Origin: Posidonia oceanica
Taxonomy: Eukaryota > Streptophyta > Magnoliopsida > Alismatales > Posidoniaceae
Length of the DNA stretch: 64,000 nt
NCBI GenBank assembly: GCA_037176725.1
Contig: JAZBRS010000074.1
Location: 65,414,001-65,478,000, forward strand
Direction of reading: 5' to 3'
Shown here: positions 6,416 through 33,782 of the stretch, one piece after another
Numbering within the stretch: the first letter of the stretch is position 1
Layout: every line of letters starts with the position of its first letter
Notes under the pieces: generated by a model
What the model was told of the DNA's origin: nothing
The model's input: the letters and a program-made list of their open reading frames with translations, nothing else
The model's database searches: none
Translations under genes and position numbers: made by a program

Positions 6416-6615
6416 TGCGTAACAGGAGTCCTTGCCCTTTCTCTTGGCTCGCATTGACCTTTCCCTTATCCTAGGCCTGAGTCATAGCATAGCATGATAG
6501 CGTAGCATAGCTTAGCTTATCCTTGCATCTCTTTGCCCCTCCTTGCATCCGGTTCAGCATGTCTTTTCATGCTTTACCCCCTGGTTTTCCTTGTCTTCCA
6601 ATTCAATAGATTCAG

Positions 6616-6625
6616 TGGCGACTCC
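6616..6625 (+). other. PBS-like decamer inside the LTR
   Basis: TGGCGACTCC, identical to the first ten bases of the true PBS, lies about 150 bp before the LTR end. Matching words occur in the other LTRs at 25418, 42979, 49994, 54859 and, on the minus strand, 40264-40273 and 51168-51177. Confidence 0.75.
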
Positions 6626-6777
6626 GAATTGTCTTATCATTTCTTTTCTTTTCTTTTGCCAGCGTTTCTGAGTCGAGTTCTTCCCTTGGATCTAGCCGCA
6701 TATAGTGAGCCTATTTTGATCGGTGCACACAAGCTTTGGTAATGTGCATGGACGATCAGAATTCAGGATTACTACAA

Positions 6778-13640: not shown

Positions 13641-15363
13641 TCTCAGAACTTATTGCATATGGAGAGGAGGATGATACAGGCGAAGTTGAGAATGATGAGC
13701 CATCACCTGAGTTCCGGCCCCACAACGACGATCCAGAAGGCCCCAACCTCCATGTCGAAGAGGAGACAGAGGTTGTCAGCATTGGCACAGCAGAAGAAGT
13801 CAGAGAGGTCCGCATCAGCGCCCTTCTGTCGCCCCAAGCTAGAGCAGAATTCATCGCATTCTTGAAGGAGTATGCGGATGTCTTTGCCTGGAGCTACGAG
13901 GATATGGTGGGCCTTGACATTAAAATAGTTGTGCACAATCTGCCCTTAGACACAGATGCAAGGCCAGTAAAGCAGAAGCTAAGGCGATGGCGACCGCAGT
14001 GGCTACTTATGATCAAAGAGGAGATCATGAAGCAGCACGGCGTTAACTTCCTCAAGGTTGTCCTTTACCCTGAGTGGCTTGCAAATGTCGTCCCAGTGCC
14101 CAAAAAAGACAGACGAGTCCGCATGTGCATCGACTATCGGAACCTAAACAAGGCGAGTCCCAAGGATGATTTTCCACTACCGTATAATGACATCCTGGTC
14201 GATAATACCGCAGGGCACAAGATGCTCTCTTTCATGGACGGCTTCTCTGGCTATAATCATATTAGAATGGCAGAAGAGGATATGGAGAAAACATCATTCA
14301 TCACCCCTTGGGGTGTCTTCTGCTATCAAGTTATGCCATTTGGGTTGAAGAATGCTGACGCAACCTATCAGAGGGCCATGACTGCACTTTTCCACGACCT
14401 CATGCATCAAGAAGTTGAGGTATACGTGGACGATATGATTGCCAAGACCAAAGAGCCTGAGGATCATCTTGCCTGCTTAAGGAAGCTCTTTGACCGCCTG
14501 CGAAAGTACAAGTTGCACCTTAACCCCAGTAAATGCGTATTTGGGGTATCTTCTGGCAAACTCCTAGGCTACATTGTTAGCCAGAGGGGGATTGAAGTGG
14601 ACCTGATAAAAGCAAAAACCATCGTGGATATGCCACCCCCCAGGACAGAGAAAGAAGTCCGAGACCTGCTCGGACGCCTGCAATATATTAGTCGGTTCAT
14701 TGCTCAGCTCACGCCTATATGCGAACCGATCTTCAAGCTCCTGAAGAAGAATGCACAGATCAGCTGGAGCGAAAAGTGCCAGGCCGCCGTAGACAAGATT
14801 AAGCAGCTTCTGACCAAGCCTCCTGTGTTGGTCCCTCCCACGCCTGGGAGACCTCTGCTTCTCTACCTCTCTACCACCCAGCATTCCATGGGCGCCGTCT
14901 TGAGCCAGCATGATGAATCTGGTAGAAAGGAGCACATAATTTATTACCTGAGCAAGAAATTCATTGACTGCGAAGCCAGGTATAGCACAATGGAGAAGAC
15001 CTGCCTTTCCCTCTTCTGGGCTGCACAGAAGCTGAGGCATTACATGATGGCATACCCAGTCCGGCTCCTATGCCGACACGACCCCATCAAGTTCCTCTTC
15101 CAGAAGCCAGCAATGGTAGGCAGATGCGTCAAGTGGCAAGTGTTGTTGTCTCAGTACGACATCACCTTTGTCATGCAGCGCGCCATGAAGGGCCAAGCCA
15201 TGGCAGATCACCTTGCAGACTTTCCTTTGCCTGAATACCAACCTCTCCAGATGCAGTTCCCAGATGAGGACATTCTCTTTACAATGGAAGACACTGAAGA
15301 GAAGGACCCCGAAGACTTAGAGCATTGGCAGTTGTACTTTGATGGCGCTGTCAAAAGAAGGGT
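13641..15363 (+). CDS. pol: TAT-1 reverse transcriptase and first RNase H
   Basis: This copies the element RNA into DNA. The RT core is about 14030-14560: VLYPEWLANVVPVPKKD, CIDYRNLNKA, FPLP, then LSFMDGFSGY (the usual D is kept), MPFGLKNA, and the catalytic YVDD near 14422-14436. The first RNase H follows at about 14830-15200. Its first catalytic Asp is replaced (YLSTTQHS where active enzymes have a DAS-type motif), as expected in the Tat lineage where this copy is a degenerate tether. The segment before RT (13690-13900) is conserved with TAT-2. There are no stops in this stretch; the frame is lost at about 15360 within the next RNase H. Confidence 0.92.
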
Positions 15364-15756
15364 TGAGGCATACGTGCGGTGTTGACTACACCGCAGGGGC
15401 AGATGATCCCCTTTACAAGGAAGCTGACCTTCAAGTGCACTAACAATGAAGCAGAATATGAAGCATGCATTCTAGGATTGAAGGTCGCACTTGAGCATGA
15501 GGCACAGAAGTTGCATGTGCACGGCGATGCCATGCTAGTGATTTCCTAAGTGAATGGCGATTGGAGAACAAAGGATCCAAAGTTAGTGCCATATCACGAA
15601 TACCTGCTGAAGCTGATAGAGCAGTTTGCAAGCATCTGCTTCTCGTATATGAATAGAGTAAGGAACGCATATGCAGATGCATTGGCGACCTTGGCGTCCT
15701 GGCTCAGTATACCTGAAGACCGAGCAGTGGATGTATCAGTTACATGCATAGAATAG
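15334..15756 (+). pseudogene. TAT-1 archaeal-type RNase H (aRNH), frameshifted
   Basis: This second RNase H, typical of Tat elements, should remove the RNA template. The catalytic set is visible: FDGA near 15345, NNEAEYEA near 15446, HGDAM near 15522, and NAYADAL near 15665. Compared with TAT-2 (31590-31980, minus), the frame changes at about 15360-15378, so the first Asp and the rest are in different frames. TAA at 15547 and TAG at 15754 both replace glutamines kept in TAT-2. Confidence 0.85.
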
Positions 15757-15945
15757 CCTGCGCATTGCATGAGCATAGAGGAGGCAGATTCAGCAGAAGA
15801 GCAGCCTTGGTACTGTGACATTAAAGCATTCCTCGAGTCTGGCAGCCACCCACCTGGCACCTCAGTGGCAGATAGAAGAACTTTGGCGCATCTGGCGTCA
15901 AAGTACGTATTAGGGGCAGGGCAGCTATACAGAAGGTCATACAGC

Positions 15946-17049
15946 TAGATGCTCCTGCGCTGCTTAAGCAAGTCAGAGGCCGACACCCTTATGCTCCAAG
16001 TCCATGCAGGGACTTGTGGTCCGCATATGAATGGAGTGCTGCTGGCCAAGAAGATAATGTTGCAAGGCTATTTCTGGTCAACCATGGAGGCAGACTGCTG
16101 CCAATTTGTACGTAGATGCCACAACTGCCAAATCCATGGTAATCTTATGCACGCACCCCCACAGGAATTGCATAGCATGTCCTCGCCATGGCCCTTCTCC
16201 ACCTGGGGGATGGATGTCATTGGCGCTATACATCCTGCAGCATCGAATGGTCATCGCTTCATCCTGGTAGCGATAGATTATTTCACTAAGTGGGTGGAAG
16301 CAGCCTCCTACAAGGCAGTCACAGTTGCGGTGACAGAGAAGTTTATCAGAAATAACATCGTCACCTGTTATGGGGTCCCGCATGCAATCATCTCTGACAA
16401 TGGCCCGAATTTTATTGCAAAGAGGATCAAGGAATAACTGCAGAAGCATCAGATCAAGCATCATAGATCCTAGCCGTATCGGCCCTATATGAATGGAGCA
16501 GTGGAGTCTACCAACAAAAACATTGTGAAGATAATGAAGAAGATGGCAGAAACCTAGAGAGATTGGCATGATAAGCTCCCGTACGCACTCTGGGCGTACA
16601 GAACATCAGTGCGGACCTCTACAGGAGCTACCCCTTATTCGCTGGCATATGGCATGGAAGTAGTGCTGCCCGTCGAAGTAGAAATCCCTTCACTGCGAAT
16701 CCTACGAGAAGCAGAGCTGGAAGAAGTAGAATGGGTCGATGACCGCTGCGCCCAGCTTAACCTGATAGACGAGCACAGATTGCAAGTAATGCATAATGCT
16801 CACTGCTACCAGAAGCGTATGGCAAGAGCATACCTAAAGAAGGTGCGACCCAGGAGCTTCCAGCCAGGTGACCTTGTCTTGCAAGCCATCCACTTGCCAG
16901 ACGGTCGAGGCAAATTCCGACCCAACTGGCGTGGCCCCTTTGTGGTCAAGCAGGCATTCTCAAGTGGTGCAGCCATTCTTGAGGACATGGATCAGACTGG
17001 GCAGTCAGAGCCGGTCAATGCATGCTACCTCAAGAAATACTATCAATAG
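15946..17049 (+). pseudogene. TAT-1 integrase (several stops)
   Basis: This would insert the cDNA into the genome. The HHCC zinc finger is at about 15990-16130 (H...H, then CHNC). The catalytic core has D in WGMDVIG (near 16210), D in ISDNG (near 16392) and E in NGAVES (near 16494). The C-terminal GPF-type module (NWRGPFVV) is near 16925 and the end YLKKYYQ is followed by TAG. Stops at 15946, 16435, about 16471 and about 16555 interrupt it. The 15946 stop replaces a glutamine of TAT-2. It is in frame with aRNH upstream, so it was part of one polyprotein. Confidence 0.9.
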
Positions 17050-18565
17050 CCTGGCCCCAACCTTGCAGGGCATTTCCTTCCATCCTACCCTTTGCATCTT
17101 CTCTTCCTTGTACATCCTCCCTGCATCCCAATCTCGTCCCTTGCATTCCCACATTCTCTGCATATAGCCTTGCATTCTCTATCTCTTCCTGCATACTTCC
17201 AGCAAAAATAAAAAATTCCTGCAAAAATCATGCATTGCATCAAGCCCGATGATGAAATCGGACGTGCTGCCTGCTTTGGAAGGAATCTACCCTGCCTCAC
17301 CTGACACTACTTAAGCGTCTTAGCTAGTGAGGGAGCCACCTTTCAAATGAGAACAGGCGAAACAACGAAACCACTTAGGACTTGCGCCTCCCGAGGGAGA
17401 TAAAATGCTAGGACGTGAGCAAATGTGAGCATAAAAGATATGTCTGAGCATGGGCACAAAAGAAAAGCAATAGAAGGCGAAGGCAGAAGCAAGCCCTAGA
17501 GATAGAGGCGTGTAGCATAACCCTGTCCCTCCGAACTGCTTCGAAGATGATCCAACATTCAGCACCTGGGAGCCCCGAATCCACTTCAAAACCCCAGCGC
17601 CCATTACCTCTAAGCCTGGGATAGCGGAAGCTTGCAAAAAAAAGAAGAAAAGAAAAAGCAAAGCAAAAAGCAAAAAAAAGAGAAAGCAAAAAGAAAAGAA
17701 GCAAAAAAAAGAGAAGGAGTGAAAATAAAAAGCAACTCCAGAAAGAAAAAAGGCAAGCAGCGCAATCCCATCCCTTACCTGCCTTAGAGATGAACAACTT
17801 GCGCCTGGGGAATCCACAAGCCCTGCGAAGCCTTTAAACTCAGCAAAGCCTAGCAAGCAGCTCCCCAACTCCAACTTGGTGCCCATTGCCTCCAAGTTAG
17901 GGATAGGGGAAACCTACATGCCTATGAGGGAGCCAAAACGATGCAAAAGAGTAGGTGTAGGTCCTTGCGAGTTTGGTCTGGAGCCCGTCCTCATCACCCA
18001 CCACCCCCGCACTACAAATAACCCCCTCCTAAGCGCCACCAGCAAGTTAAGAGTTCGAGTAGAGTCCAGTGAGTCAAGGACCCCTCTCTTCCTCTACAGC
18101 AGGCACCAAGCACTCCTTATGCTGAGGGCTACAGCATATAAGCTAAGTCATGCACACATCTATAGCATCTATTGTAAGCCTTGCACATATCTGCGCATAC
18201 CAAGCATAAACCATGCATGCATGCATAACATAAGTCCTTTCTTTTCTTCTACCTTCCCGCTCTGCAAAACTTGGCCCGGCGTTGAGACAGTACTTCTATC
18301 TAGCGTGCGCCGACCGTCTCCCGGCTGCACTGGTCCAAAGCTTCGACCAACCACTTGCCCCAGCAGAGCTTCCCCTAGTCTAAATATGCCTTATATCTAC
18401 ACTCTGAATGCTATCTGCTGAGCTTGATATAACTACTGTGTTAATTTTGAAATGATGCCCTCTACCTGCCAAGTGTTGTATGCTTATACCTAAACTGATG
18501 AACTGCAACTCTGTTTACAGGTACCTGAGCTTTCTGCACCAGCAGCCTGCACGTACACTCCTACG
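17050..18565 (+). other. Non-coding region between integrase and the PMD-like ORF of TAT-1
   Basis: No supported gene. The 17320-17420 part (GGGAGCCACCTTTCA, then GAGGGAGATAAAATGCTAGGACG) recurs in TAT-2 on the minus strand around 29899-30010. A phrase like CCATTACCTC.AAG.TGGGATAG occurs twice in TAT-1 (17605, 17883) and in TAT-2 near 29660. There is an A-rich stretch at 17637-17745. A CTGTTTACAG acceptor-like site lies before 18520. Confidence 0.6.
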
Positions 18566-19768
18566 ATGGGCTACCCGACTTTGGTCACTCCCATGCACTG
18601 TTCAGATGCCTTGCGAGAGTGGGTTGGCAGACTCACTGAAGCTGATCGCAAGAGGCTGTGCACTTGGGGGATTCCCTCTAAACTTCTGAAAGCAGCAGAT
18701 GTTGAAGTGAGCCCGCACGTCCCATGTGCTGCAGTAAGATTCTGGAAGCCAGCACATCACGTCTTCCACTTCGGCAGGACGGAGCTAACTCCTACGCTTG
18801 AGGAGGTGTGCCGGATCTGCGGCTTCTTTGCAATTATGGGACCCCCAATCTTTATGAGGCGTGATGGATATGCTGCGGTCCTGAGCCAGCTGACTGGGCT
18901 CTCTGTTAAGCGCGTCCAGCAAAAACTTATCTGCACCAGTGGGCCCATGCCCCTGCTTCGCCTAGAGTACTTTGATGCTGTTATGGAGAAGCGCGCTGAA
19001 CTTGGAGACAAGCTGTGGCTCCAGGGATTCATCGTCTGCTTCCTAGGCGAGCTGATCTTCACGCATGGCAGGATGATGGTTGCAATCGAGATTGCTGAGA
19101 TTGCACTTGCAGTGGTGACCCAGCACATCGACCTAGCACCAGTCGTCCTCGTAGAGACATACCGCAGGCTAGACCGCATTGTGCATCGCTGCCGTCAGTT
19201 CCACGGCTGCGGAGTGCTTGTGCAGATCTGGCTAGCTGCACACCTGGAGATGGACCTCCTGTGCCCTCAGAGGCATGCTATTGAAACCTACTGCAGCAGC
19301 GGCCATGCAAGAACTATAAAGACTGTGCCAGAAGAGTACCAAAAGCTATCTGAGCTGACAGATGATGCAGTAACTTGGCGGATCATCCCATCTGTAGCAG
19401 AGCCCTTTACTGTATTCTTCGATGCTCGCGATACGCGGCTCGTAGTGCTGCCAGGATTCACCGGGGGTGTGGAGTACCACCCTATCCGGGTTATGTGGTA
19501 GTTTGGCTACCGGCAGGGCGCATTCATTGATAGCACCGCGTCCAGACTCATGCAGCCATACCCCTTCAGCACGATAGCATCCACAACAGTGCTAGCAGAC
19601 CTAATGCGGCACGGGGTCAAATCCACTGATATTGCAGCTGTGAAGGGTTCGGGATGTACTTCTGAGTACGTCACCAAGGTGCAGGGACTCTGGCCCCTCA
19701 GCGGGATTCCTCCTGGCGCCCCTCAGTTTTCTAACTCCTGCCCAGCAAAGAAGGCCTGGCATAACTAA
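18566..19768 (+). pseudogene. Plant-mobile-domain-like ORF of TAT-1, sense, intronless
   Basis: About 400 codons starting at ATG 18566. It is open for 311 codons, then TAG at 19499-19501, then open again in the same frame to 19768. The segment FWKPAHHVFHFG...LTPTLEEVCRICGF resembles the start of the plant mobile domain (PF10536 type), known in transposons and in the host MAIN/MAIL genes; the assignment is by motif only. A close paralogue is encoded at 27316-28772 with two introns. Here the matching joins are contiguous: ATG-GGC at the start, and GTGCAG-ATCTGG near 19223. The TAG lies at the same site as in the paralogue. It is the same strand as pol, 1.5 kb after integrase, so it is an extra ORF of the element. 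Confidence 0.65.
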
Positions 19769-20279
19769 GCACCTATGCAGTTGTTTGCTTGTATAGTTCT
19801 TCTTGAATCAAGCTGTATCTTTTGGCCTGTCAGAGGCGTGTAACCAGAGATTCACTCAATACAAAGACATTTCACGCCATTTGTTTGTGTTGCATGCCTT
19901 GCCTATTTGCATATCTGTTCCTGTTAGGATGTTACAGGACCTGCATCAAGCACCTCAGAGCATTAGCCCATGCAGACAACCTGAAGCAGCCCCGCAAAAA
20001 GTCTAAGAACAGCTCCCCTGCAAGCACCATGCAATCAGTAGCCTCAGCAGGAGAGTTGCAGCAAAGCCCTTGCAATCAGCATGCACGCAAAGAACCCTGC
20101 TGATCCATGCACTACTGCTACCCCTTGCCCAGTTTGCTCTGGGCTGGCACCCCTAACTGCTCGCTTGGCAAACGCGTTAGTTTTGTCTGCATTTTCTTTT
20201 TTTTTGGTACTAAGGGCGCTTCAGTTGTCAGGGGCATCTTTTTAGCTACCCTCTGGTATCGCTTTTCCCTTTTTTTCCT
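19769..20279 (+). other. 3' UTR of TAT-1 before the array
   Basis: No gene. Positions 20140-20260 hold single copies of words that are tandemly repeated in TAT-C: GGGCTGGCACCCCTAACTGC, TTGGCAAACGCGTTAG, and GGGCGCTTCAGTTGTCAGGG. Confidence 0.6.
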
Positions 20280-21720
20280 TTCTGCTTGCTTCCTCAGGCG
20301 AGGACAAGCTCTTCTCGGACCCCGTATGCTCGGAGTCCTGCCCTGTATCCTCGCGTGAGGATCAGCCCTTGCGTGGCTTCGCTCCGTGCGGACGAGGCCC
20401 ACGCTTGCCTGCCTCCTTTCCCTTCCTGCTTATCCTCGGGCGAGGATAAGTATTTTGTCTTTCTTGCTTGTCCTCGTGCGGGGACAAGCCTTTTTCCATT
20501 TTGCGTGGCTCCGCTCCGTGCGGACGGTGTCCCGCGCGCTTGCTTCCCCAGACGGGGACAAGCTTCTTTCTTCTGCCTCTCCTACTTGTCCTCGTGCGAG
20601 GATAAGCCTTTTTTCTTTTCTGCGTGACTTCCCTTCGTGCGGACGGGGTCCTGCACGCTTCCTTCCTCGGGTGAGAACAAGCTTCTTTCTTCTATCCCTC
20701 CTGCTTGCTTCCTCGGGCGAGGACAAGCCCTTTTTCCTTTTTGCTTGCTTCCTTGGGTGAGGACAAGCTTTGTGCAGCTCCACGCGGATGGAGTTTTCCT
20801 GTTCCTCGGGCGAGGATCAAGCTTGCTTACTCCTCGACCAAGGATAAGCATATGCGTGCCTCTGCTTGCTCCTCGGGCGAGGACAAGCTCTTCTCAGACT
20901 CCGTATGCTCGGTGTCCTTCCCTATATCCTCATGCGAGGATCAGCCCTTGCGTGGCTTCGCTCCGTGCGGACGATGCCCATGCTTGCCCTCCCCCTTTTC
21001 CTTCCTGCTTATCCTCATGCGAGGATAAGACTTTTGTCTTTCTTGCTTGTCCTTGTGCAAGGACAAGCCTTTTTTCGTTTTGCGTGACTTCCCTCTGTGC
21101 GGACGGGGTCCAGCGCGCTTGCTTCCCCGGGCGGGGACAAGCTTCTTTCTTCTGCCTCTCCTGCTTGTCCTCGTGCGAGGATAAGCCTTTTTCCTTTTCT
21201 GCGTGACTTCGCTCTGTGCGGACGAGGTCCCGCGTGCTTGCTTCCTCAGGCGAGGACAAGCTTCTTTCTTCTTTCCCTCCTGCTCGTTTCCCTAGCCAGG
21301 GACGAGCCCCCTGTCTATCCCTCGGGGCTCGGGTCAGACTGCTGCTTGTTTCCTCAGGCGAGGACAAGCCCCCCAAGGATTCCGTCCGTGCGGAATCCCC
21401 CACTTGCTTCCTCGGGCGAGGACAAGCTCTTCTCGGACCCCGTATGCTCGGTGTCCTGCCCTATATCCTCGTGCGAGGATCAGCCCTTGCGTGGCCTCAT
21501 TCCGTGCGGACGATGCCCACGCTTGCCAACCTCCTTTCTTTTCTTGCTTGCTCCTCGGGTGAGGACAAGCTCTTCTCAGACCCCGTATGCTCGGAGTCCT
21601 GCCCTATATCCTCGTGCGAGGATCAGCTCTTGCGTGGCCTCGTTCCGTGCAGACGATGCCCACGCTTGCCAACCCCCTTTCTTTTCTTGCTTGCTTCCTC
21701 AGGCGAGGACAAGCTGCTCC
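20280..21720 (+). repeat. 3' UTR tandem array of TAT-1 (hairpin units)
   Basis: Units contain GCTT(C/G)(T)CCTCGGGCGAGGACAAGC or CTTATCCTCGTGCGAGGATAAG and spacers such as TTTCCTTTCTGCGTGACTTCGCTC and GTGCGGAC. Almost every unit is a near-perfect hairpin (CTTGTCCTCG...CGAGGACAAG). Higher-order repeats of about 530-570 bp recur (compare 20290-20420, 20880-21010, 21410-21540). Long open frames on both strands here are by-products of the repeat. Confidence 0.9.
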
Positions 21721-22209
21721 TATTCCCTGTAGGCTGGCAGCCCCAACTGCTCGGTCGACAGCTGTCCAATTGTCTCCCTCTTTGCTTGCTGGGCTAGCAA
21801 CCCTAACTGCTCGGATGCCAAGCCCGTCAGTCTTATCAAGCATTTCTTCTGTGAGGTCGGACTAACCCCCGAACTCACGCATTGCACTGCAGCTTTATTT
21901 GCATCTCTTCTGCATCAGCATCGTATTCTTGCACTAACAGCATTGCATGGTAAATAACTGCATCAGCATACATTGCATTTGCACTAACATCTAACATAAC
22001 CTCTGCACTAATTCCTGCATTAGCATGCATCGCATTGCATCAGCACGCATTGCACTCGCATCCGCATCTGCATTGCAGCTCTGAGCCATGTCTTCCAGTG
22101 TATCCATCGGGCGAATGGCTCGTGCCTACAGTTGTTTGCGCTCTCGCCAGCGTCAGGTAGGGTGTCTTGTCAACCCTGAGCAGCAGTCTCACTCCGCTTG
22201 ACCTTGCTC
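21721..22209 (+). other. 3' UTR of TAT-1 after the array
   Basis: Two copies of GGGCTGGCAGCCC-like words (21727, 21797), then GCATT-rich sequence. A terminal segment of about 110 bp (GGGTGTCTTGTCAACCCTGAGC, GCTTGACCTTGCTCAGGGAGG) is shared with TAT-C (47350-47416). No gene. Confidence 0.65.
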
Positions 22210-22222
22210 AGGGAGGGGCATC
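22210..22222 (+). promoter_or_regulatory. Polypurine tract of TAT-1
   Basis: AGGGAGGGGCATC abuts the TG of the 3' LTR and primes plus-strand DNA synthesis in this class of element. Confidence 0.85.
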
Positions 22223-25200
22223 TGTAGACACCCCATTCTGACAGCCTGGAAGCTAGTAGTTCTCTTTTGCAGGCTCGTATGGTCTCTGGATTGGCATTCC
22301 CTTTTCTAACCCATTTCCTAGCCCATTTCCAAACCCAAAACCTCACCTAAACCCTAGAAGCCTTTACCAAGCCTTCTTGCAAGTTTTACAACACTTCTAG
22401 GCCCAAACCTAAGCCCATTTGCAGCTTATGCCACCTGAGTGTGTTGGACGCTGGAACAGGCAGCGTCCAACGTTGGACGCGCTCTGGTCTGGCGTCCAAC
22501 GTTGGACGCGCTCTGGTCTAGCGTCCAACGACTCAAGTGTAGCAGCGGCAGCTCTGCCCCCTTCTGCTCACCGCCCGTCCACTCCACCACCTCCCCACAC
22601 TTACTACCCGTCCCTTCCTTCGCTCCACGCCAGCCACTACCTTCCAAGCCTCACTTACTACCCATCTCCTCCATATCAGCCCAAAACCTGCCCTCTAAGC
22701 TCTCTCTCATAGGCCTGACTTTCGTCGGTCGTGTCAGCCACCGCCTTGCCTCCACCGCCCTCCTGCCAATGCCCACGCCCTCCTCTGACATCCCACATGG
22801 CCTCTACACTCTCACCCGCACTTGCCAACATCTGCCAAGCCCAGAATTTGGCCTGCAAATCCTCTGCACCAGCACACGAACCCATGCCATTTGCACAAAA
22901 CCAGCAGCTTCAAGCCATTGCTACTCTCACCACACAAAGCCTACGAGAGAATTTTCACTTCCGAGAGCAAGAAGCGACTCCCATCTTCGTCTGCAACCAG
23001 CTGCAAGCTCCTCCGGTGCTCCGAGCAACTCAGGCAAGCCCGCTGAACTTGCTGCCATGCACACACCTACAACTCCAGTGAACGAGGTGGAGCCGGCCTT
23101 CCAGCCCAGGAAACGGTAAGCCCCGTATCCCACTATGTTGTGCATGCATGGTAGTACGTGTCCATGCACTTTTTACAAGCTTTTAGCTCCTTTTGGATGT
23201 GATTCACATCCAAAAGGAAGTTCAGTGTGTTGGATGCACCAACTGGTGCGTCCAACGTTGGACGCGGCATAGGCTGGCGTCCAACGGCCTGCTTTGCTCT
23301 GCCTTTATCTGAATGCTTTCCATGCCTTTTCCTTGCATGCCTGTTTGCAAACATATGCTATTTGCCTCCTTTTGATTCTCTCTGATGCTATACCATGTTT
23401 TTAACTTGTTCCATGCTTGTTTGAAGGCTTTTTGCATGTTTAATATCCATCTGTCTGCTGCCTTTGTTGGACGCTAGAATGAGCTGCGTCCAACATTGGA
23501 CGCTGGTTCACCTAGCGTCCAACGCCCCTGCTTGCTTTGCTTTGCTGCCATGCCTACTCCATGCATATTTTGAGTATTATTTTGTGATCCATGCCTAGTT
23601 AGAGATGCCTGGCCCCTATGGCAACCATGCTTAGGTTTGCTAGGATTTTACTAAGTTGTTTATTTCTTTTTGCAAGTTTAAAGCTTCCATCTCTTATGCA
23701 TGTCCTTCCTTTTTGTTTTTCTTTAACTTAAATGCTTGCCATGCTTGCTTTCAATGCTTCCTTTTCTGTTATGGCATGTTACAGTAGCTGCATGCATGTA
23801 GGTGGGGTCTGAGCTGAGCTCCCCCTTTAGAACAGGTGAGTCTGCTGGTCTGGGTCGTTGGACGCCGGAGCCTTCAGCGTCCTACGTTGGACGCTACTGG
23901 CTCTAGCGTCCAACGTCCTGGCTTCTCATGCATTTGTTTAATGCTTGCATGTCTTCTTGATCTTGCTTGTTTGCTTATTCCCTATGTTCTTATGCATGCC
24001 TAGTTTCTTTAGCAACTGTTATTTATTTTCTTTGAATTATTTGCTTGTTTTTATGCATGCTTTTTGTGTGTTGTGCCTCCCAGAGCGTTGTATGCTGCTG
24101 GTGTTGGTGTCCAACGTTGGACGCCGACCTAGCTCGCATCCAACGCCCTGGTTGTGCCTCTGGCCTGTCACTCAACACAGGTAAGGCCTGTTTGATTTTA
24201 TTTTGCCTCCCATGCTTGCTTGCTTGCTCCATGCTCAACTCCAGAGACCCAAATGCATGATCCCAACTCTCCTCTATCACTTGTATGCATCTTTTCTCCC
24301 CTCTGCCTTCTGTTCTTGTTGGATGCCAGCCTCTCTGGCATCTAACGTTGGACGCCCAGCCTACAGGCGTCCAACAACCTGCATGCTTGGATCTTTAATT
24401 TTGGCATGCTCCTTGTTCTGATTCTTCCTCTAATCTTCTGTTAGGTTAGATTAGCATGTCTAGCACCCATTTAGCTGCACATTTGCATCTGTATTGCATC
24501 CATATAGTTAGAAAGCATGGATTTTCAAAAGAGTGCATGCCGTCTATCTGCAGCAAGTGTTGGACGTGGGCTCTTCCAGCATCCAACGTTGGACGCTAGT
24601 GTTTCCAGCGTCCAACGCTTGCAGATGGCTGACAGCCGTTTTAAAGCGCAGATTTCGTTTCGTTCGGCGTTTCTTGCGTTTTATCGCTTCTTTGGCTTGC
24701 TGCAACCCCAATGCATGTTGTCCACCCCTTTGTTTTGATTTCGCACCCTCCTTTGCCCCGTTTTGCGCACTTTGCCCCATTTTCTGCATTTTTGCATTGT
24801 TTTCCCGCTCTTCTGCATGGTTTTCCCGCACCCCATTGCATCGCTTTCCGCTTTCAGCATCGTTTTCCGTGCCTTGCTTTATTTTTCTGTATTTTCGCAT
24901 CGTTTTCCGCACCTATTTTACTTTATTGCTTGCATGTCACTTGCATTGCTTGGTTTTCCCGCCGTTTTGTTTTATCGCTTGCATCCGCATATAGGGCTGT
25001 GATGCTAATTGCTTAGGAGTTCTCACGAACTAGGGTCCGCCCAATTCGGAACACTAGCAGCGTGGCTGAGCACATAGATAGCACGTTTATTTCCAATGCA
25101 TAGTAGGTAAGCATTTAAGGCATTTAGGCATTAGGCTAGCAATTCCCTGCATAAGCACAAGATTGCCTAAGAAAGACCGAATCTCAGACGTATCGGGGGT

Positions 25201-25578
25201 GCCTAACACCTTCCCCGTGCGTAACAGGAGTCCTTGCCCTTTCTCTTGGCTCGCATCGACCTTTCCCTTATCCTAGGCCTGAGTCATAGCATAGCATGAT
25301 AGCGTAGCATAGCTTAGCTTATCCTTGCATCTCTTTACCCCTCCTTGCATCCGGTTCAGCATGTCTTTTCATGCTTTATCCCCTGGTTTTCCTTGTCTTC
25401 CAATTCAATAGACCCAATGGCGACTCCGAATTGTCTTATCATTTCTTTTCTTTTCTTTTGCCAGTGTTTCTGAGTCAAGTTCTTCCCTCAGATCCAGCCG
25501 CATATAGTGAGCCTATTTTGATCGATGCACACAAGCTTTGGTAATGTGCATGGACGATCAAAATTCAGGATTACTACA
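22223..25578 (+). repeat. 3' LTR of TAT-1 (3356 bp)
   Basis: Collinear with the 5' LTR, TGTAGACACC to ACTACA. It lacks one 29-bp hairpin unit of cluster 1. Other visible differences are mostly A/G or C/T changes. The PBS-like word is at 25418-25427 and the hairpin at 25194-25217. Confidence 0.93.
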
Positions 25579-25583
25579 AAGTT
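25579..25583 (+). repeat. Target site duplication of TAT-1, right copy
   Basis: AAGTT, identical to 3387-3391. Confidence 0.9.
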
Positions 25584-25706
25584 CATATATTGTTAGCTAG
25601 GCATACATCTTTGTCATTTGCAACTGGGGGGATCAAACCCCTCGGGTACGTATCTCACCACATTTTCTTTACTTTCATTTCTACTAACTCTAGATAGATT
25701 ACTACA
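25584..25706 (+). mobile_element. Candidate remainder of the LTR of TAT-A
   Basis: This continues the sequence broken at 3391. GATTACTACA at 25697-25706 is identical to the last ten bases of the TAT-1 LTR and is the best candidate for the end, but no target duplication can be checked. A small inverted repeat (GGGGATCAAACCCC) lies at 25627-25641. Confidence 0.35.
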
Positions 25707-26088
25707 CATATTGATCCATTTTTACATTGTCTTGTTTGTTTTGTTTTGCTAACGTTTGTTATACAAGGAGGAAGAAGGAAGAAAGAACTTACCAAGCACG
25801 GGCACCCTTGGGCAATGCTGGCGTTGTCCCAAGGTAGCTGAACCCGCAACCACACTATATCTCCCCAAAGGCATCTCAAGGGCCAGCGAAAGCGAACCGA
25901 GAGTGGCGATCACACCGATTCCATCACACGTGGAGTGACGGAGTCGGATACAAAAAAGGGGAACCTCGAAAAAGAGAAGATAGAGCGAGCAAAAAAGGGA
26001 TCCAAAAAGAAAGAAGCCTTCTTCTTCCCACAAAGCCTCCATCATCATCATCTTCTTCTTCTCCATCCAAAAACCCCATATCCACAAT
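25707..26088 (+). other. Unassigned sequence upstream of the + strand genes
   Basis: No gene supported. It ends in an A/G-rich then CT-rich stretch (25960-26075) that could be a 5' untranslated region of the gene starting at 26089. Confidence 0.4.
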
Positions 26089-26845
26089 ATGGTGTCAGAG
26101 ACCCTGACTCGGGCCGCTGTCAGGACTGCTTTGGCCGCATCGGCGATGGCCCAGAGCCGCTTCACCATCCGGGAGGTCTCCCGCGATGAATATATGGATT
26201 GGTTCGAGCGGGTCGGCAAGCCGCACTTGTTCCCGGAGGATCTTCGGGATGGACAGACCCAGATGTGGTACAACGAGGGCTGGAGTCAGGTAAAGGACTC
26301 CTAACACTGCTGTAGGTTTGATAAATGTAGTATCTGTCTCCTCATTCTGACTCTTTGACTTGGGTACAGGCCTTTGAGGTGCGGCTGCAGGATTGGATGT
26401 GGCAGATGCGAGCTGCTTCGGTAAAATAGCTGTAAAGTAGCCTTTAAATTTGCTTGTGAATGTATACCTGTCTGTTCTGACATGTCTGGTTTTTTGGCAC
26501 AGGGGAGGTGGTAGAGACGGCTTCCAGCAGTATAAGCTTGGATCAAATGCAAACAGCTTAACCTATTATAAATGCCTGCTAAAATGCTTTATGTTTGCTT
26601 TTCAGGGGAGTAGCTTCGGTCCAGCCGTCAACACTGAGTCCAATGGGGAGTTCAGCGTGGACTTCGCCTTGGCGGATGTGTCAGACGCAGAGTCTCCTAC
26701 CGAGGAGTGCAGCATGGGGCTGGGTCCCTTGCAATCTCGATCAGTTGCAGCCAGGCTCGCTAGGAGGCTGCGGAGGAAGCAAGTCAGGGAAGGTCTCGTG
26801 AGGATTCATGGCGCCCCACCTCCTGACTCGTCCAATGAGGACTAA
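26089..26845 (+). CDS. Unknown three-exon gene, antisense in the 3' region of TAT-2
   Basis: I do not recognise the product. The reading is open only if two introns are removed. Exon 1 is 26089-26289, ending CAG|GTAAAG. Exon 2 is 26370-26420, from TACAG|GCC to TCG|GTAAAA. Exon 3 is 26606-26845, after TTTTCAG|GGG and ending in TAA. Exon lengths are 201, 51 and 240 nt, all multiples of three, and both donors and acceptors are good plant sites. The predicted protein is about 163 residues. It has a charged, aromatic N-terminal half (YMDWFERVGKPHLFPEDLRD), a short Trp-rich middle, an acidic segment and a basic tail (ARLARRLRRKQVREGL). The retained introns suggest it is not copied through RNA in this orientation. 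It could be an extra ORF of TAT-2 or an unrelated gene fragment. Confidence 0.5.
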
Positions 26846-27315
26846 GTGCCTGCAGTCATGGAATTTTTGTTTGCTGGGCTTGTTTGCATTCTATTGTTTT
26901 CTTTATGCTTTATCCTCTGTTTGTACTCCTGATGCTGTAAACTGAGTTGGATATGGAATGCAAAAGGAACTGCCCAGGGGGCTCTTTGGATGACAAAATA
27001 TGTGTATCTGTGCTTGTGTTGTATGTATGTGCCTGTATGATCGGGCAAGTGGCCTCTTTTGCATTTTTTAGGGGTCCCACAGGTTGCAGGCGACTTAAGT
27101 TAACTTAAGTCACAGCCAGAAATTTTACTGTAAAAAGCACGGGAGTTCCACGCGGGAGCTGGGCGCGGGACCGCGACGCGGGACCAAGTGGCCTGCCCAT
27201 ATGTCACGTGATTTGCTTTTCTAGGGCACCCATTTATATGCCCCCCACAACACATGGAGGTGCCAGACGCCTCCCAAGAACCCTGAGACCTCTCCTTCTC
27301 CCATTCTTCTCCAAA
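26846..27315 (+). other. Region between the two + strand genes, with a promoter candidate
   Basis: No gene. 27138-27186 carries a cluster of GCGGGA words (ACGCGGGAGCTGGGCGCGGGACC) like those in the TAT-2 LTR (41100-41140, 42380-42620). About 50 bp further, TTTATAT near 27231-27238, 80 bp before the ATG at 27316, is a reasonable TATA box. Confidence 0.4.
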
Positions 27316-28772
27316 ATGGTGGGTTTCTCTTGCTTTTTCCTTGATTTCCATGGTTGGCCCATCACACCCTAGGTTTCCATGGTGGGGGCTCCTGCCGGCT
27401 CGACGAGGCTGCTGTCCGGCCCTTCCATTTTCGTTCCTCTTGATTTATTGAGTTCTATTCTAATCTTTGCATTTGTTTCTGTGTAGGCTTTTCCCACTTT
27501 GGTCACCCTAGTTCACTGCTCGGAGGTACTACGGACATGGATCCGAGGCCTTACTGCCGTTGATCGGGAGACGCTGCGGCTATAGGGCATCTCCTCCCAG
27601 ACACTGGATATTGCCGAGGTGGAAGTCAGTCGCCACCTCCTTTGTGCTACGGCAAGGTTCTGGAAACTGTTGCTCCATGTTTTCCGCTTTGGCTCAGTGG
27701 AAATGACGCCCACCCTAGAGGAGGTGCGCCGGATTTGTGGCCTATCGCCACTGTCTGGGCCTGCTGTGTTTATGAGACGGGAGGGCTATGTGTCTGTCCT
27801 GCGCCAACTAACGGGTCTCACCCCGGGGGAGTGTGCAGGAAGGTTGATTCGTACTGACGGGCCGATGCCTAGGATCCGCCTGGAATATTTCGAGCAGACA
27901 ATCCCGAGGCGTGCCACCTTGGGTGATGAGTTGTGGCTTAGGGGGTTCGTCACCCGCTTCCTTGGTATGCTGATCTTTGGCCACGGCCTGCTGGCTGTCG
28001 CTGTTGAGGTGGCTGAGATAGCTTTAGCTGTAGTAACCCGGCAAATTGATCTGGCACCGATGATTCTAGCAGAAACCTTCTGTGGGCTGGACAGGGTCTC
28101 ACACCACTGTCGTCACTTCCACGGGTGTGCGGCCATGGTTCAAGTAAACTACTCATTATAACTGTCCAGATGGCCTGGTCTGTTTCTGCTCTGTTGACTC
28201 TACTAATTTCTCTTTTTCAGGTCTGGCTGGCCTGCCATATGGGGGCAATGGCTATCTGCCCTCAGCGTCCTGTCTTTGAAGGTTACTGCTGCTCTGGGCA
28301 TGCCCGAGCCATAGGGAGCATCCGGGAGGAGTATGAGAAGCTAGATGGGTTGACCGGGGACACTGTGGTCTGGCGGATTCTCCCTACCGCGGCGGATCCA
28401 TTTACCATGTTCTTCAATGGGAACAACGCACGGTTGGTCATCCTGCCGGGGTTCACTGGGGGCGTTGAGTTCCATCCCATTTGGGTGTTGCAGTAGTTCG
28501 GCCTTCGCCAGGATGCGTTCATTGAAGGTCACATGCCTGAGAGATTCTGGTCTTATCCGCTCAATTCTTCAGTGATGACGGAGGAGCTAGCCCGACTTAT
28601 GAGAGGCAGAATAAGATCTACTGACATAGCTGCGATGCCTGGCTCGGACTGTACTGCTGGATACATCACTGAGGTGCAAGCAACATGGCCCATCTGCGAG
28701 GTCCCACCTAGTGGTCCTCTGTTTAGTGGTGCTGGTAGCTCCAAGAGGGGGCGGTCCAGCTTAGATGAATGA
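27316..28772 (+). pseudogene. Plant-mobile-domain-like gene with two introns, antisense to TAT-2 pol
   Basis: A paralogue of the TAT-1 ORF at 18566-19768. The ATG at 27316-27318 is followed at once by a donor (ATG|GTGGGT). Intron 1 is 27319-27486 (acceptor CTGTGTAG). Exon 2 is 27487-28143 (219 codons, ends CAA|GTAAAC). Intron 2 is 28144-28220 (acceptor TTTTTCAG). Exon 3 runs from 28221 to 28772. Both introns keep phase 0. The conserved core includes FRFG...MTPTLEEVRRICGL, GPMPRIRLEYFE, ALAVVTRQIDLAP and LPGFTGGVEFHPI. Stops are TAG at 27583 (Trp in TAT-1) and TAG at 28494 (shared with TAT-1). It lies 1.5 kb beyond the end of TAT-2 integrase on the opposite strand, so it is probably an antisense extra ORF of that element, a class known in Tat elements. 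Confidence 0.65.
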
Positions 28773-30246
28773 AAGCAAAGTGTAACATGTTCATCAACCC
28801 AGCGGCTTGTGCGGGTTAGATCCAATGCTTGTAACTGAATTTCAATGAATATGAAGACTATCATGATGTTGTGTATGCTCCACTTTGATTTTTGTTTACG
28901 GCACTTGGGGTCTTCTTGGTTTTGCAGGCAAAATGCAACCAATCCACTAACAGCTGCTCTGCAGCCAAGACCCTATTAAACACGCGGCGATGGGACGCGG
29001 GAGCTGAGCGCGGGATCTACACGTGGGGACGGCCTGGCAGGCCACTGTCAATGCCTTTTCCCCCTCTCTGAGTGGTGTAAGGGGGGCCAGGCGTAGCCTC
29101 CTGACTATGTCTATGACCTTCAAGCTGATGGGCAAGTCCACTCTACCTCCTGCCAAAGATTCTGCCTCTGAATGGTGATCCACTAGCAAAGTCCAGCCTG
29201 AACTCGGTGCATCCTTTGATACTAGCTTGTTGTTTGGCAAACTCTGACTGGGTCGGCGATGCATGTCCGGCTTAGGAATGTCTTGTCCCTAGTCATACTG
29301 GCCCAATGATCTCTGTAGCGGGCAACGGCGTGCTTTGGCTCGAAACTGAGCTGGAACCTTGCAATATCTGGCAAGAGGGATGCTAAATGGATGCATGCTC
29401 GATGTGAACATATTGTCGTCCTCAGTATATGGAAGGCTTTCAATGCCAGCTATGGAGAAGGGAATGGTCTCAAACATCATCTGGCCCTACCTAGACTCTC
29501 AGCTATTGGTGGCACTCAGGGAAGGGTGAAGGTATGTTTGTTTGGTGGTGGGATGAGAATGGGCTTCATGCCAAACCCTCTCCGGGACCTACACCTTCTC
29601 TTTTAATTCCCTTATTTTTCTCCCACATAGATGAGCAAACTCACTCTATCCCTAACTTGGAGGTAATGGATGCCTGGTCTGGTATTCAGGAGTTGTTACT
29701 ACTAAAAGGGGTGGCTAGTCCCTGGGGAAATGTACTTCCCAGGCATGGGCTTCGACTCCTCTCCAAGGTTGGCTGAGGGAATAGGGCTACTCTGCTCGCC
29801 TCTAACTCTAGGGCTAACTTCTATCTTCGTCTTCTGTCTTCTTATTTCTTTTGTGCCCTGGTAGGCGGATAGATAAATTTTGTATGGCTCACACTCTCAC
29901 TCTCGTCCTAGCATTTTATCTCCCTCTTGAGGTGTAGGTCCTAGGAGGTTTGAACATTTCGTCCATTCTCACATTGAAGGTGGCTCCTTTACTGGCTGAG
30001 ACATCTAGGTAGGACCAGATGAAGCGAGGTTGGATCCCTACTCAAGCAGGCAAGCTTTTCCAGCTTTCCTCATCGGACGAAGATTGTAATGCATGATGAT
30101 GATGTGCAGATGCTGTTTATGACTGGCCGAGTGGCATGTAAAGCAAATAAAAGAGTGCAAATGCGAGTGCATGATGGCGGGACGGTCATGTATGCATGGG
30201 ATGCAAAGGGAAAGAGGATTCTGCAAGGCAAGGATACAGTTCCAGA
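28773..30246 (-). other. 3' UTR region of TAT-2 after integrase
   Basis: No supported gene. The part near integrase (29650-30010) is homologous, on the minus strand, to 17320-17900 of TAT-1, which assigns it to the element. 28980-29025 has another GCGGGA cluster (ACGCGGGAGCTGAGCGCGGG). The rest is unrecognised. Confidence 0.55.
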
Positions 30247-31365
30247 TCACTGGTAGTATTTCTTGAGGTAGCAGGCATGGACTGGCTCGAACTACTCGAC
30301 CTGATCCATACTCTCAAGGATTGCTGCGCCCCTAGAGAATATCTGCTAGATGACATAAGGGCCACGCCAGTTGGGCCGGAATTTGCCTCGGCCGTCAGGA
30401 AGGTGAATGGCTCGCAAGACCAAGTCACCTGGCGTGAAGCTTCTGGGCCTGACTTTCTTCTGATAGGACCTGGCCATCCTCTTCTGATAGCATTGAGCGT
30501 GGTGCATTGCCTGCAATCTACGCTCGTCGATCAGGTTCAACTGGGCGCAACGGTCTTCGACCCATTCTGCCTCTTCTAGTTTTGCCTCTTTTAGAATCTG
30601 TAGAGACGGGATCTCAACTTCAACTGGCAGAACGGCCTCCATGCCATAGACCAGTGAATAAGGAGTTGCTCCTGTCGAGGTCCGGACCGACGTTCTGTAG
30701 GCCCACAAGGCGTATGGGAGCTTGTCGTGCCAGTCCTTGTGAGTCTCCGCCATCTTCTTGAGGATCTTTATCAAGTTCTTATTGGCTAACTCGACTGCAC
30801 CATTCATCTGTGGCCAATAAGGGGAGGACTTGTGGTGCTTAATCTTGAAACTGTGCAGGCACTCCTCCATTCTCTAGGCCGTGAAGTTCGTGCCATTGTC
30901 AGAGATGAGCGCGTACGGGACCCCGTAGCGGGCAATGATGTTGTTCCTGATGAACTTCTCCGTTACTACGGCCGTTACTGCCTTGTATGAGGCCGCCTCC
31001 ACCCATTTGGTAAAGTAGTCGATCGCGACAAGGATGAAGCGATGACCGTTGGAGGCTACAGGATGGATTGCGCCAATGACGTCAATTCCCCAAGTGGAGA
31101 AAGGCCAAGGTGACGCCATGCTATGAAGCTGCTGCGGCGGTGCATGGATGAAATTCCCATGTATCTGACAGTTGTGGCATCTGCGCACGAACCGGCAACA
31201 ATCTGCCTCCATTGTGGACCAGAAGTAGCCCTGCAGCATAATTTTCTTGGCTAGTAACACGCCATTCATATGTGGGCCGCATGTCCCTACGTGGACCTGA
31301 AGCATCAGCATGTCAGCCTCTTTTTTGTCTGCACAGTGCAAAAGCATCTGATTGTAGGACCTTCT
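30247..31365 (-). pseudogene. TAT-2 integrase
   Basis: Integrase with the HHCC finger (about 31330-31190: HVGTCGPHMNG...CHNCQIHG), the core D in WGIDVIG (near 31090), D in ISDNGTNF (near 30900) and E in NGAVEL (near 30800), then the GPY module (NWRGPYV near 30350) and the end YLKKYYQ with TGA at 30247-30249. Stops: TAG at about 30871-30873, TAG at about 30343 and TAG near 30283. It is in one frame with aRNH and RT. It is closely related to the TAT-1 copy, with most residues identical in the core. Confidence 0.9.
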
Positions 31366-31589
31366 GTAGAGATGTCCTGCTCCTAAGACATACTTAGACG
31401 CCAAACGTGCCATAGTCTTTCTGTCCACTGCTGACGTGCCGGTTGGGAGGTTGCCAGACTCCAGGAAGACCTTGATGTCATGGTACCAGGGTGGTTCCTC
31501 TGTGATAACTGCTTCCTCGATATTCATGCAGTGCACGGGTTGCTCAACGCGGGTGACTGATACGTCCACTACATTGTCTTCGGGTATGG

Positions 31590-31985
31590 AGAGCCAGGAT
31601 GCTAAGGTTGGCAAAGCATCTACATAGGCATTCTTGGCTCTATTCATGAAGGTAAAGTGAGTCTCCTTGAAATGCTCAATCAGTTCCAGTAGGTACTCAT
31701 GGTATGGCACTAGCTTGGGATCCTTGGTCCTCCAGTCGCCATTGACTTGGGAGACGACTAGCATTGCATCACCGTGCACATGCAGTTTCCGCACACCATG
31801 CTCGAGTGCGACTCGCAGTCCTAAGATGCAGGCTTCGTATTCTGCCTTGTTGTTGGTGCAGCTGAAGGTCATTTTCCTGGCGAACGGGATTAGTTCTCCC
31901 TGTGGTGTTGCTAGGACTGCTTTGATGCCTCTGCCTCTTTTATTGACGGCGCTGTCAAAAAACATGTGCCACTGAAATTCATCCT
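31590..31985 (-). CDS. TAT-2 archaeal-type RNase H (aRNH)
   Basis: An uninterrupted second RNase H domain. Catalytic residues are visible as FFDSA (near 31960), NNKAEYEA (near 31845), HGDAM (near 31770) and NAYVDAL (near 31625). Two stops lie just upstream at about 31990-32030. It serves as the in-frame reference for the broken TAT-1 copy. Confidence 0.88.
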
Positions 31986-32118
31986 CGGGATCCTTCTACT
32001 CGACGTCTTATGAAGCGAACAAGATGTCCTCATCAAGGAACTGCGCCTGCAAAGGCTGATATTTAGGCAGTGGTAAGTCGGCCAGATGATCTGCTACAGC
32101 CTGCCCCTTCATCGACTT

Positions 32119-33600
32119 CTAGGTCACGAAGGTGATGTCGTACTGAGATAGGAGTACCTGCCACTTGACACATCGGCCTACTAGTGCTGGCTTCTGAAAC
32201 AAATACTTCATTGGGTCATGCCTGCACAGGAGTAGAACGGGGTAGGCCATCATATAGTGCCTCAGCTTTTGTGTGGCCCAGACTAGGGAAAGGCAGGTTT
32301 TCTCAATCATTGTATACCTGGCTTCGCAGTCATTGAACTTCCTACTTAGGTAGTAGATGGCGCGCTCTTTGCGACCTGATTCATCATGTTGGCCCAGGAC
32401 TGCGCCTACAGAATGCTGTGTTGTTGAGAGGTACAGTAGCAGGGGTCTTCCTGGCGTGGGAGGAACCAAGACAGGGGGCTTAGTTAGGAGCTGCTTGATT
32501 TTCTCAAACGCGGCCTGGCATTCGTCGCCCCACTTGATTTGTGCATTTTTTCTCAAGAGTTTGAAGATCGGCTCACAGATGGGCGTGAGCTGTGCGACGA
32601 ATCGACTGATATACTGCAGTCGCCCCAGTAGGCCTCGGACCTCCTTCTCAGTAGCAGGGGGCATTTCAATGATAGCTCGAGCTTTGCTGGGATCTACTTC
32701 AATCCCCCTCTGGCTGACAATATAGCCAAGGAGCTTTCCAAACGACACATCGAAGACGCACTTGTTGGGATTGAGCCTGAGTTTGTAGCGCCTAAGGCGA
32801 TCGAACAGCTTCTTCAGGCAAGCAAGATGATCTCCGAGCTCTCGGGACTTGGCGATCATATCGTCCACGTAGACCTCCACCTCCTGATGCATGAGGTCGT
32901 GGAACAAGGTCATCATTGCTCTCTGGTAAGTTGCTCCAGCATTTTTCAGCCCAAATGGCATTACTCTGTAGCAGAAGGCCCCCCATGGAGTGATGAAAGA
33001 TGTCTTCTCCATATCCTCCTCTGCCATTCGAATCTGGTTGTAGCCTGAAAAGTCGTCCATGAATGAAAGCACCTTGTGGCCCGCTGTATTGTCCACCAGG
33101 ACGTCTATGTGTGGCAGAGGAAAGTCATCCTTGGGACTGGCTTTGTTCAGATCTCTGTAATTGATGCACATGTGGACTTTTCTATCTTTCTTTGGTACAG
33201 GTACGACATTGGCGAGCCATTCCGGGTATAGGACGACCTTGAGGAAGCTAACATTATGCTGCTTCATAATTTCCTCCTTGATCATCAACAGCCATTGCGA
33301 TCGCCACCTCCTAAGCTTCTGTTTAACTGGCTTTACATCCGGGTCTAGCGGTAGTGTGTGTACCACTATCTCGACATCTAAGCCGACCATATCATCATAG
33401 CTCCAAGCGAAGACGTCTGCATATTCCGTGAGGAATGCAATGAACTCTTCCCGGGCTTGGGGGGACAATTTGGCACTGATACGGACCTGTTTAATTTCCT
33501 CAGCTATGCCGATGTTGATGATCTCTACTTCCTCCTCGACGTGTAGGTTTGGTCCTTCTGGATCGTCATCGAAGGGTTGAAACTCAAGCAAAGGTTCGTC
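32119..33600 (-). CDS. pol: TAT-2 reverse transcriptase and first RNase H
   Basis: A long open frame. The RT core has VVPVPKKDRKVHMCINYRDL, FPLP, LSFMDDFSGY, MPFGLKNAG and catalytic YVDDMIAKS (near 32870). RNase H follows with LLLYLSTTQHSVGAVLGQ, again lacking the usual first Asp, and ends at TAG 32119-32121. A one-base change near 33730 shifts the frame from the linker upstream. An upstream stop near 33715 replaces the glutamine of KRHQGQ in TAT-1. Confidence 0.92.
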   Translation of the reverse strand, partial: DEPLLEFQPFDDDPEGPNLHVEEEVEIINIGIAEEIKQVRISAKLSPQAREEFIAFLTEYADVFAWSYDDMVGLDVEIVVHTLPLDPDVKPVKQKLRRWRSQWLLMIKEEIMKQHNVSFLKVVLYPEWLANVVPVPKKDRKVHMCINYRDLNKASPKDDFPLPHIDVLVDNTAGHKVLSFMDDFSGYNQIRMAEEDMEKTSFITPWGAFCYRVMPFGLKNAGATYQRAMMTLFHDLMHQEVEVYVDDMIAKSRELGDHLACLKKLFDRLRRYKLRLNPNKCVFDVSFGKLLGYIVSQRGIEVDPSKARAIIEMPPATEKEVRGLLGRLQYISRFVAQLTPICEPIFKLLRKNAQIKWGDECQAAFEKIKQLLTKPPVLVPPTPGRPLLLYLSTTQHSVGAVLGQHDESGRKERAIYYLSRKFNDCEARYTMIEKTCLSLVWATQKLRHYMMAYPVLLLCRHDPMKYLFQKPALVGRCVKWQVLLSQYDITFVT

Positions 33601-33782
33601 ATTCTCTTCTATGCCTGTATCCTCCTCCTCATAAGCTATGAGTTCCGAGAGGATCTCCTTCTCAAAGGTTGGATTTGTGACATCGAAGGAGCAAATCTGT
33701 TCAGCATCCTGGCCCTAATGGCGCTTCAGGATGGTCACGCTGACTCACGTGTTTCTATATGCCCACTGTGTGGGCTCAGCTC

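Follow-up and report, generated by a model that had tools for sequence, protein, structure and literature searches.

Opposite orientations and intron states of a plant mobile domain gene carried by Tat-lineage retrotransposons of Posidonia oceanica

Two Tat-lineage retrotransposons, TAT-1 and TAT-2, lie in a stretch of 64,000 nucleotides (nt) of Posidonia oceanica DNA (contig JAZBRS010000074.1, positions 65,414,001 to 65,478,000; hereafter 'the window'), and both carry, behind pol, a gene for a protein with a plant mobile domain (PMD) and a DUF7745 domain. The gene is intronless in TAT-1, where it lies on the same strand as pol (sense), and contains two introns in TAT-2, where it lies on the opposite strand (antisense). 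We consider it likely that the antisense, intron-bearing state is the older one, and that one lineage became sense and intronless by passage through spliced RNA. The features on which this reading draws are, in window coordinates:

18566-19768, plus strand: sense PMD/DUF7745 gene of TAT-1, intronless, on the same strand as TAT-1 pol, with joins after 18568 (site 1) and 19225 (site 2)
27316-28772, plus strand: antisense PMD/DUF7745 gene of TAT-2 ('gene B'), three exons, on the strand opposite to TAT-2 gag-pol
27319-27486, plus strand: intron 1, 168 nt, immediately behind the ATG; GT and AG in 30 of 30 loci
28144-28220, plus strand: intron 2, 77 nt, phase 0 at MVQ/VWLAC; GT in 30 and AG in 27 of 30 loci
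10832-17531, plus strand: TAT-1 pol (reverse transcriptase, RNase H, integrase), by Pfam RVT_1, RT_RNaseH and H2C2, with rve below the curated cut-off
29775-38436, minus strand: TAT-2 gag-pol, by Pfam gag, RVT_1, RT_RNaseH and RVT_3, with rve below the curated cut-off

A sequence-only reading of the window had described an intronless gene at 18566-19768 and a paralogue at 27316-28772 with introns at 27319-27486 and 28144-28220; these coordinates proved exact, both introns have GT..AG ends, and the TAT-1 gene is indeed joined precisely at the two sites. In the window copy the splice motifs read ATG/GTGGGT..TGTGTAG/GCT for intron 1 and GTTCAA/GTAAAC..TTTTTCAG/GTCTGG for intron 2, and removal of both introns yields a TAT-2 protein that aligns with its TAT-1 counterpart over 400 residues without internal gaps, 217 of them identical. 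The description of the gene as plant-mobile-domain-like likewise holds, both copies exceeding the cut-offs for PF10536 (PMD; sense gene E 1.5e-14, 54.4 bits; antisense gene with exons joined E 1.7e-9, 37.8 bits; cut-off 34.9 bits) and PF24924 (DUF7745; E 2.2e-9, 37.3 bits, and E 1e-10, 41.7 bits, respectively; cut-off 26 bits). The strands are as had been claimed, that is, sense to pol in TAT-1 and antisense in TAT-2, with RVT_1 on the plus strand in the former and gag, RVT_1 and RVT_3 on the minus strand in the latter, and the two pol regions share 70-76% identity. T2, as we call the TAT-2 family, also exhibits the additional RNase H between RNase H and integrase that defines Tat/Ogre elements, with RT_RNaseH in one frame and RVT_3, H2C2 and rve (below its cut-off) following in the next.

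The pairing of orientation and intron state extends far beyond the window. Searches of the genome (2.96 Gb, 80 contigs) were made with DNA queries for T1, the TAT-1 family (1251 bp; best 40 of 15399 candidates scored), and for T2 (1491 bp; best 40 of 8302 candidates scored). All 40 sense-type places, window included, match the query over 1248-1254 bp and are hence intronless, and all 40 antisense-type places, window included, match with both introns over 1483-1491 bp; the scoring of many copies for orientation and introns that the sequence-only reading had put forward as a check thus came out uniform among the best-scoring places. Of 29 non-window T1-type loci, 26 have the 3' end of pol on the strand of the gene and 3 have no pol flank; of 29 such T2-type loci, 27 have it on the opposite strand and 2 have no pol flank.

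Two further Tat families, T3 (locus L069) and T4 (locus L071), conform to the same pattern. At the one T3 locus the gene is sense, with the pol end upstream, and is joined at both sites. The orientation of T4 had been fixed beforehand as the deciding test and came out antisense, as a rule tying introns to antisense orientation demands: at its locus, CAG/GTAAAAAACTG...TCTAAACAG/GTTTGG constitutes a 72-nt GT..AG intron at site 2, and the pol end lies behind the gene on the opposite strand. Among the best 40 of 18470 candidates in a T4 DNA search, the pol end is in antisense arrangement at 33 places (L071 included), with no pol piece at 7. T4 is abundant in the genome, 137 protein matches having been scored (best 137 of 61161 candidates); 9 of these start at residue 74-78 and the rest span site 2, none of the spanning matches exhibiting an exact loss of the 72 nt.

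Database proteins provide a similar picture. Among 58 such proteins, 26 are joined at site 2, and the best match of every one of the 26 is T1 or T3; P0055 was left out of this count, its joint motif falling in a stretch unlike the gene. A T2-like protein (P0029) and a T4-like protein (P0036) read into or through the site-2 intron. P0036, one of 44 database proteins recovered with the sense gene as query, has 24 extra residues exactly at site 2, with V-K at the start and Q at the end, which is how an intron left in place would translate; that these are a coding insertion was rejected on the DNA of L071, which is GT..AG. Three T1/T3-like proteins (P0004, P0005 and P0026) end one residue beyond site 2, which may be read as Trp-to-stop decay, because two of them end in Ile. 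As a separate observation, P0038 is T1-like from residue 230, with 204 unlike residues before.

The PMD gene occupies the same place in opposite directions in the four families, behind a spacer that follows pol in all of them:

17699-18169, plus strand: spacer behind TAT-1 pol, present in the other three families as well; the match with the antisense families stops at 18167-18169
29379-29850, minus strand: the corresponding spacer of TAT-2; the match with the sense families stops at 29379-29380

All four sense-versus-antisense comparisons stop at the same spot (T1, 18167-18169; T2, 29379-29380; T3, L069 reversed 651-662; T4, L071 1483-1496). A leader common to T1 and T3 (T1 18380-18542) follows beyond it, and no counterpart was found in those stretches of T2 and T4 that were compared. 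As the comparison of the two antisense families, T2 and T4, stops slightly earlier (window 29420), the stop may mark where a conserved spacer ends and not the scar of one rearrangement.

As to which state came first, the site of intron 2 is informative. PMD genes borne by Mutator-like elements (MULEs) in the same genome have a phase-0 intron at LLQ/IWAWEH, the same place as intron 2 at MVQ/VWLAC, with its donor in 7 of 7 loci and its acceptor found in 6 of 7; at locus L002 a MULE transposase lies beside the PMD gene (PF10551, E 9.6e-9). On contig C62 (G000:C62), PF10536 matches of this MULE type recur in runs on one strand over ∼0.4-1.86 Mb, every ∼25.4-25.5 kb, a spacing that suggests a tandem array whose units each hold a single MULE-PMD copy. 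T2 elements carry a second antisense PMD gene, 'gene A', upstream of gene B:

26087-26845, plus strand: last exons of gene A, the 5' part missing in the window, where the element is cut at 26087

A fuller copy of gene A at one locus (L070+L013) has several introns, one of them apparently ahead of YWAMEH, and a PF10536 match (E 5.9e-13); among 25 copies, four of its splice motifs are each preserved in 20-25. Since the site and phase of intron 2 are common to the MULE-borne PMD genes and, as it seems, gene A, the intron-bearing antisense state is probably ancestral.

The history that we consider likely is the following. An intron lying antisense in an element is no intron in that element's genomic RNA. 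An ancestor of these Tat/Ogre elements would have acquired an intron-bearing PMD gene in the form of DNA, placed behind pol and antisense to it. Reverse transcription would then have carried the introns unchanged from copy to copy, because they are not introns in the genomic RNA. In the ancestor of T1 and T3, the gene would have turned sense at the same place and lost both introns exactly, as we propose because this version passed through spliced RNA, either (i) in that the DNA was inverted and the genomic RNA then spliced, or (ii) in that the reverse transcriptase made a single template switch from the genomic RNA to spliced antisense mRNA. Both routes fit the data. The sequence-only reading had the gene captured or carried antisense, inverted to the sense strand, and stripped of its introns through RNA; the antisense, intron-bearing beginning is probably right, given the shared intron 2 site, but inversion is not the only way, as capture of an mRNA also gives both changes at once.

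Two motifs bear on how the gene would be expressed in either orientation:

18511-18520, plus strand: splice-acceptor-like TTTACAG ahead of the sense ATG (TTACAGGTA in 26 of 30 TAT-1-type loci)
27233-27239, plus strand: TATA-like box ahead of the antisense ATG (ATTTATAT-type motif in 28 of 30 loci)

Their conservation suggests that the antisense gene has, and is probably expressed from, its own promoter, and that the sense gene is expressed by splicing from a longer sense transcript.

Several points weigh against the proposed direction and against a general rule. Trees were built from 23 and 21 protein rows, and in these T2 and T4 with their relatives are set apart from T1, T3 and other rows. 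With L001, a host genic PMD sequence, included, T2 plus T4 receive support of 100/97; without L001 and with midpoint rooting, the T4 group lies outside and T1/T3 with relatives are grouped at 89/95. Rooting on L001, which is itself intronless at site 2, nests the antisense clade within the sense rows and so implies the opposite direction, on a branch 4.41 long that is too long for the root to be trusted; holding the sense rows together was not rejected (cost 1.10 log units; approximately unbiased test, p-AU 0.202). Since one branch of the tree parts the intron-bearing from the intronless state, the association amounts to one switch seen in many copies; it is strong in copies and weak in independent events. 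The orientation of T3 rests on one locus. The genome searches put query-like copies at the top, those with introns in the case of T2 and T4 and those without in the case of T1, and rare exceptions could fall below the scored sets. A pattern match for the spliced T2-type junction, which is less biased, gave 257 matches, all with at least 2 mismatches; among the ∼100 listed, nearly all are T3-type (GTACA or GTGCA ahead of the join), and one, C13:11974968 with a T2-like TTCAG, could be an intronless antisense copy. A PF24924 search, of a kind that favours intronless copies, returned 118 of 118 matches in one stretch. Finally, a simple inversion would leave flanks of the antisense gene beside the sense gene, and none were found when the family flanks were compared.

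That orientation decides intron survival, as had been claimed, is therefore borne out as an association in four Tat families (T1 and T3 sense and intronless, T2 and T4 antisense with intron), but only one switch stands behind it, and a sense intron is kept in Ogre. The stronger claim that a sense intron is inevitably removed on passage fails: the Ogre intron is sense and spliced in part of the transcripts only, according to the passages considered of PMC6317226, and 26 of 30 TAT-1-type copies keep an acceptor motif. Because, as in Ogre, a sense intron can be retained where it lies across an essential gene, the rule would be that dispensable sense introns are lost, not all sense introns.

Among the accounts that compete with, or narrow, this history, the one to which we give most weight is that the gene turned and lost its introns in a single step, the reverse transcriptase switching from genomic RNA to spliced mRNA that the same element had made from its antisense PMD gene, whereby the gene returned to its element sense and intronless. 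We regard this as a tentative option that falls clearly short of an even chance; if it were true, the antisense copies would keep the older form, which would argue that the Gypsy PMD genes derive from an intron-bearing host gene and not the reverse. Rather unlikely, in our judgement, are two independent captures, by which T2/T4 would have taken up an intron-bearing genomic PMD gene in antisense and T1/T3 a processed or intronless copy in sense, with no turn at all. An intronless genic PMD sequence does exist in the genome (L001), and nothing around the sense gene can be recognised as the promoter or the 3' flank of its antisense counterpart; however, sense and antisense genes form one family (T1-T2 55% and T2-T3 60% identical) far from L001, and both orientations are found at the same place behind the same spacer. 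More doubtful still is that the ancestor of T1 and T3 lost its introns for reasons unrelated to orientation, the change of strand on the same branch being coincidental. Only a single switch is visible and, as is generally known, other routes of intron loss exist; yet both introns are gone exactly, at both sites, T4 turned out in the orientation expected, and gene A of the antisense T2 family likewise has multiple introns. That 27319-27486 and 28144-28220 are insertions or artefacts is very unlikely, for although the conservation of their splice dinucleotides does not significantly exceed that of matched bases, both intervals begin with GT and end with AG, intron 2 coincides exactly in position and phase with the MULE-borne PMD intron, T4 has a GT..AG intron of other length (72 versus 77 nt) at the same site, and in 5 of 30 copies their removal yields an open reading frame (ORF) free of stops and gaps. 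The dinucleotides are changed in 3 of 240 cells (P 0.14-0.16 by base-matched sampling, hence not significant), and site conservation alone is therefore no proof of splicing.

Both window genes are broken, by a TAG at 19499-19501 in TAT-1 (codon 312) and by TAGs at 27583-27585 and 28494-28496 in TAT-2 (codons 34 and 312). The shared TAG at codon 312 was considered as a conserved signal and rejected: codon 312 is CAG in 23 and TAG in 3 of 29 non-window TAT-1-type copies, the stop is absent from all other TAT-2-type copies compared, and the pattern is one of decay. Together with the excess of C-to-T changes at CG and CHG sites in 30 TAT-2-type copies (0.119 per CG, 0.078 per CHG and 0.016 per CHH site), this makes the window stops look like CG/CHG-type decay. 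Copies without stop or gap number 10 of 30 for the sense type and 5 of 30 for the antisense type, in an alignment blind to small insertions. The ratio of nonsynonymous to synonymous substitutions (dN/dS) over all copy pairs is 0.31 (sense type) and 0.39 (antisense type); between families it is ∼0.145, a rough value, synonymous sites being near saturation (mean pS 0.722, some pairs undefined).

The remaining features of the two elements are as follows. TAT-1 is bounded by long terminal repeats (LTRs):

3392-6776, plus strand: TAT-1 5' LTR, 96.3% identical by self-BLAST to 22223-25578
22223-25578, plus strand: TAT-1 3' LTR, paired with the 5' LTR by self-BLAST

The LTR ends read TGTAG..CTACA, and AAGTT flanks the element on both sides. 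Directly after the 5' LTR, at 6777, lies ATGGCGACTCCGCTGGGGA, which resembles a primer-binding site; TGGCGACTCCGCTGGGGA, found behind the LTR at 6778 and also at 39874 on the minus strand, may be a primer site of tRNA-Arg type. Primer-site-like TGGCGACTC recurs away from the normal primer site at 6616, 25418, 42979, 49994 and 54859 (plus) and at 51177 and 40273 (minus), in both TAT-1 LTRs 160 bases ahead of the LTR end. At 49499-50833 and 54324-55867, a match to a TAT-1 LTR end (plus) is directly followed by a match to the 5' internal region (minus), and each of the two has a relative farther to the right, that of the second with its strand reversed. Several near-palindromic GCGTCCAACGTTGGACGC repeats occur inside the TAT-1 LTRs (22432-24610; 3613-3710), and repeat arrays are found at 1-1465 (31/81-bp), 12862-13339 (12/57-bp), 20281-21743 (143/579-bp) and 43093-43773 (49-bp spacings). 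The TAT-2 element is cut on its PMD side, at 26087, and contiguous homology begins at 26087-26088 in 27 of 29 other copies.

The systems with which this case may be compared are in part well known. Steinbauerova is said to have treated, in 2011, PMD extra ORFs of Ogre/Tat elements, and Babu, in 2006, reportedly dealt with MULE-borne PMD genes. Retrotransposition reporters make use of antisense introns, which remain in the RNA of the element, and retroviruses that capture a spliced host mRNA come to carry the gene sense and intronless; those are laboratory designs or animal viruses, whereas here a natural cargo gene is concerned. According to the passages considered, PMD is found in 57% of Ogre elements, with extra ORFs scored as forward or reverse and 5' or 3' (Neumann 2019, PMC6317226), and exceeds every other atypical domain of Gypsy elements in frequency across a set of plant genomes surveyed (PMC9289625). 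The likeness to these extra ORFs lies in a PMD gene within Tat-lineage Ty3/gypsy elements; the difference is that the passages considered of both papers mention neither introns in the extra ORF nor a link to orientation (PMC6317226, PMC9289625), and the single-frame prediction of the former, with at least 250 codons, could miss or cut intron-bearing extra ORFs. Ogre likewise has an intron within a Tat-lineage element, but there it is sense and kept, whereas the introns described here lie in an antisense cargo gene (PMC6317226). The MULE-borne genes resemble ours in being mobile PMD genes with the same phase-0 intron ahead of the W-A motif; they differ in belonging to a DNA transposon without an RNA stage, a host gene having been taken up beside the transposase, as the part considered of PMC5418596 has it. 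While PMD cargo in either orientation is thus already published, no report linking introns to cargo orientation was found among the titles and abstract openings covered, from a literature that lacks most subscription journals.

The Tat families of P. oceanica hence provide a natural case, in many copies, in which orientation goes with intron retention in the cargo gene of a retrotransposon, and introns together with strand may serve as a marker to distinguish capture of DNA from capture of RNA. A 2021 review suggests, in the part considered, that PMD proteins may help elements to counter silencing by the host (PMC8616336), and the order in which Gypsy and genic PMD genes originated was described as fully open in the passages considered of Ikeda 2017 (PMC5418596). 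Our findings bear on the question of which came first: because the intron site is shared with MULE-borne PMD genes, they suggest an intron-bearing ancestor.

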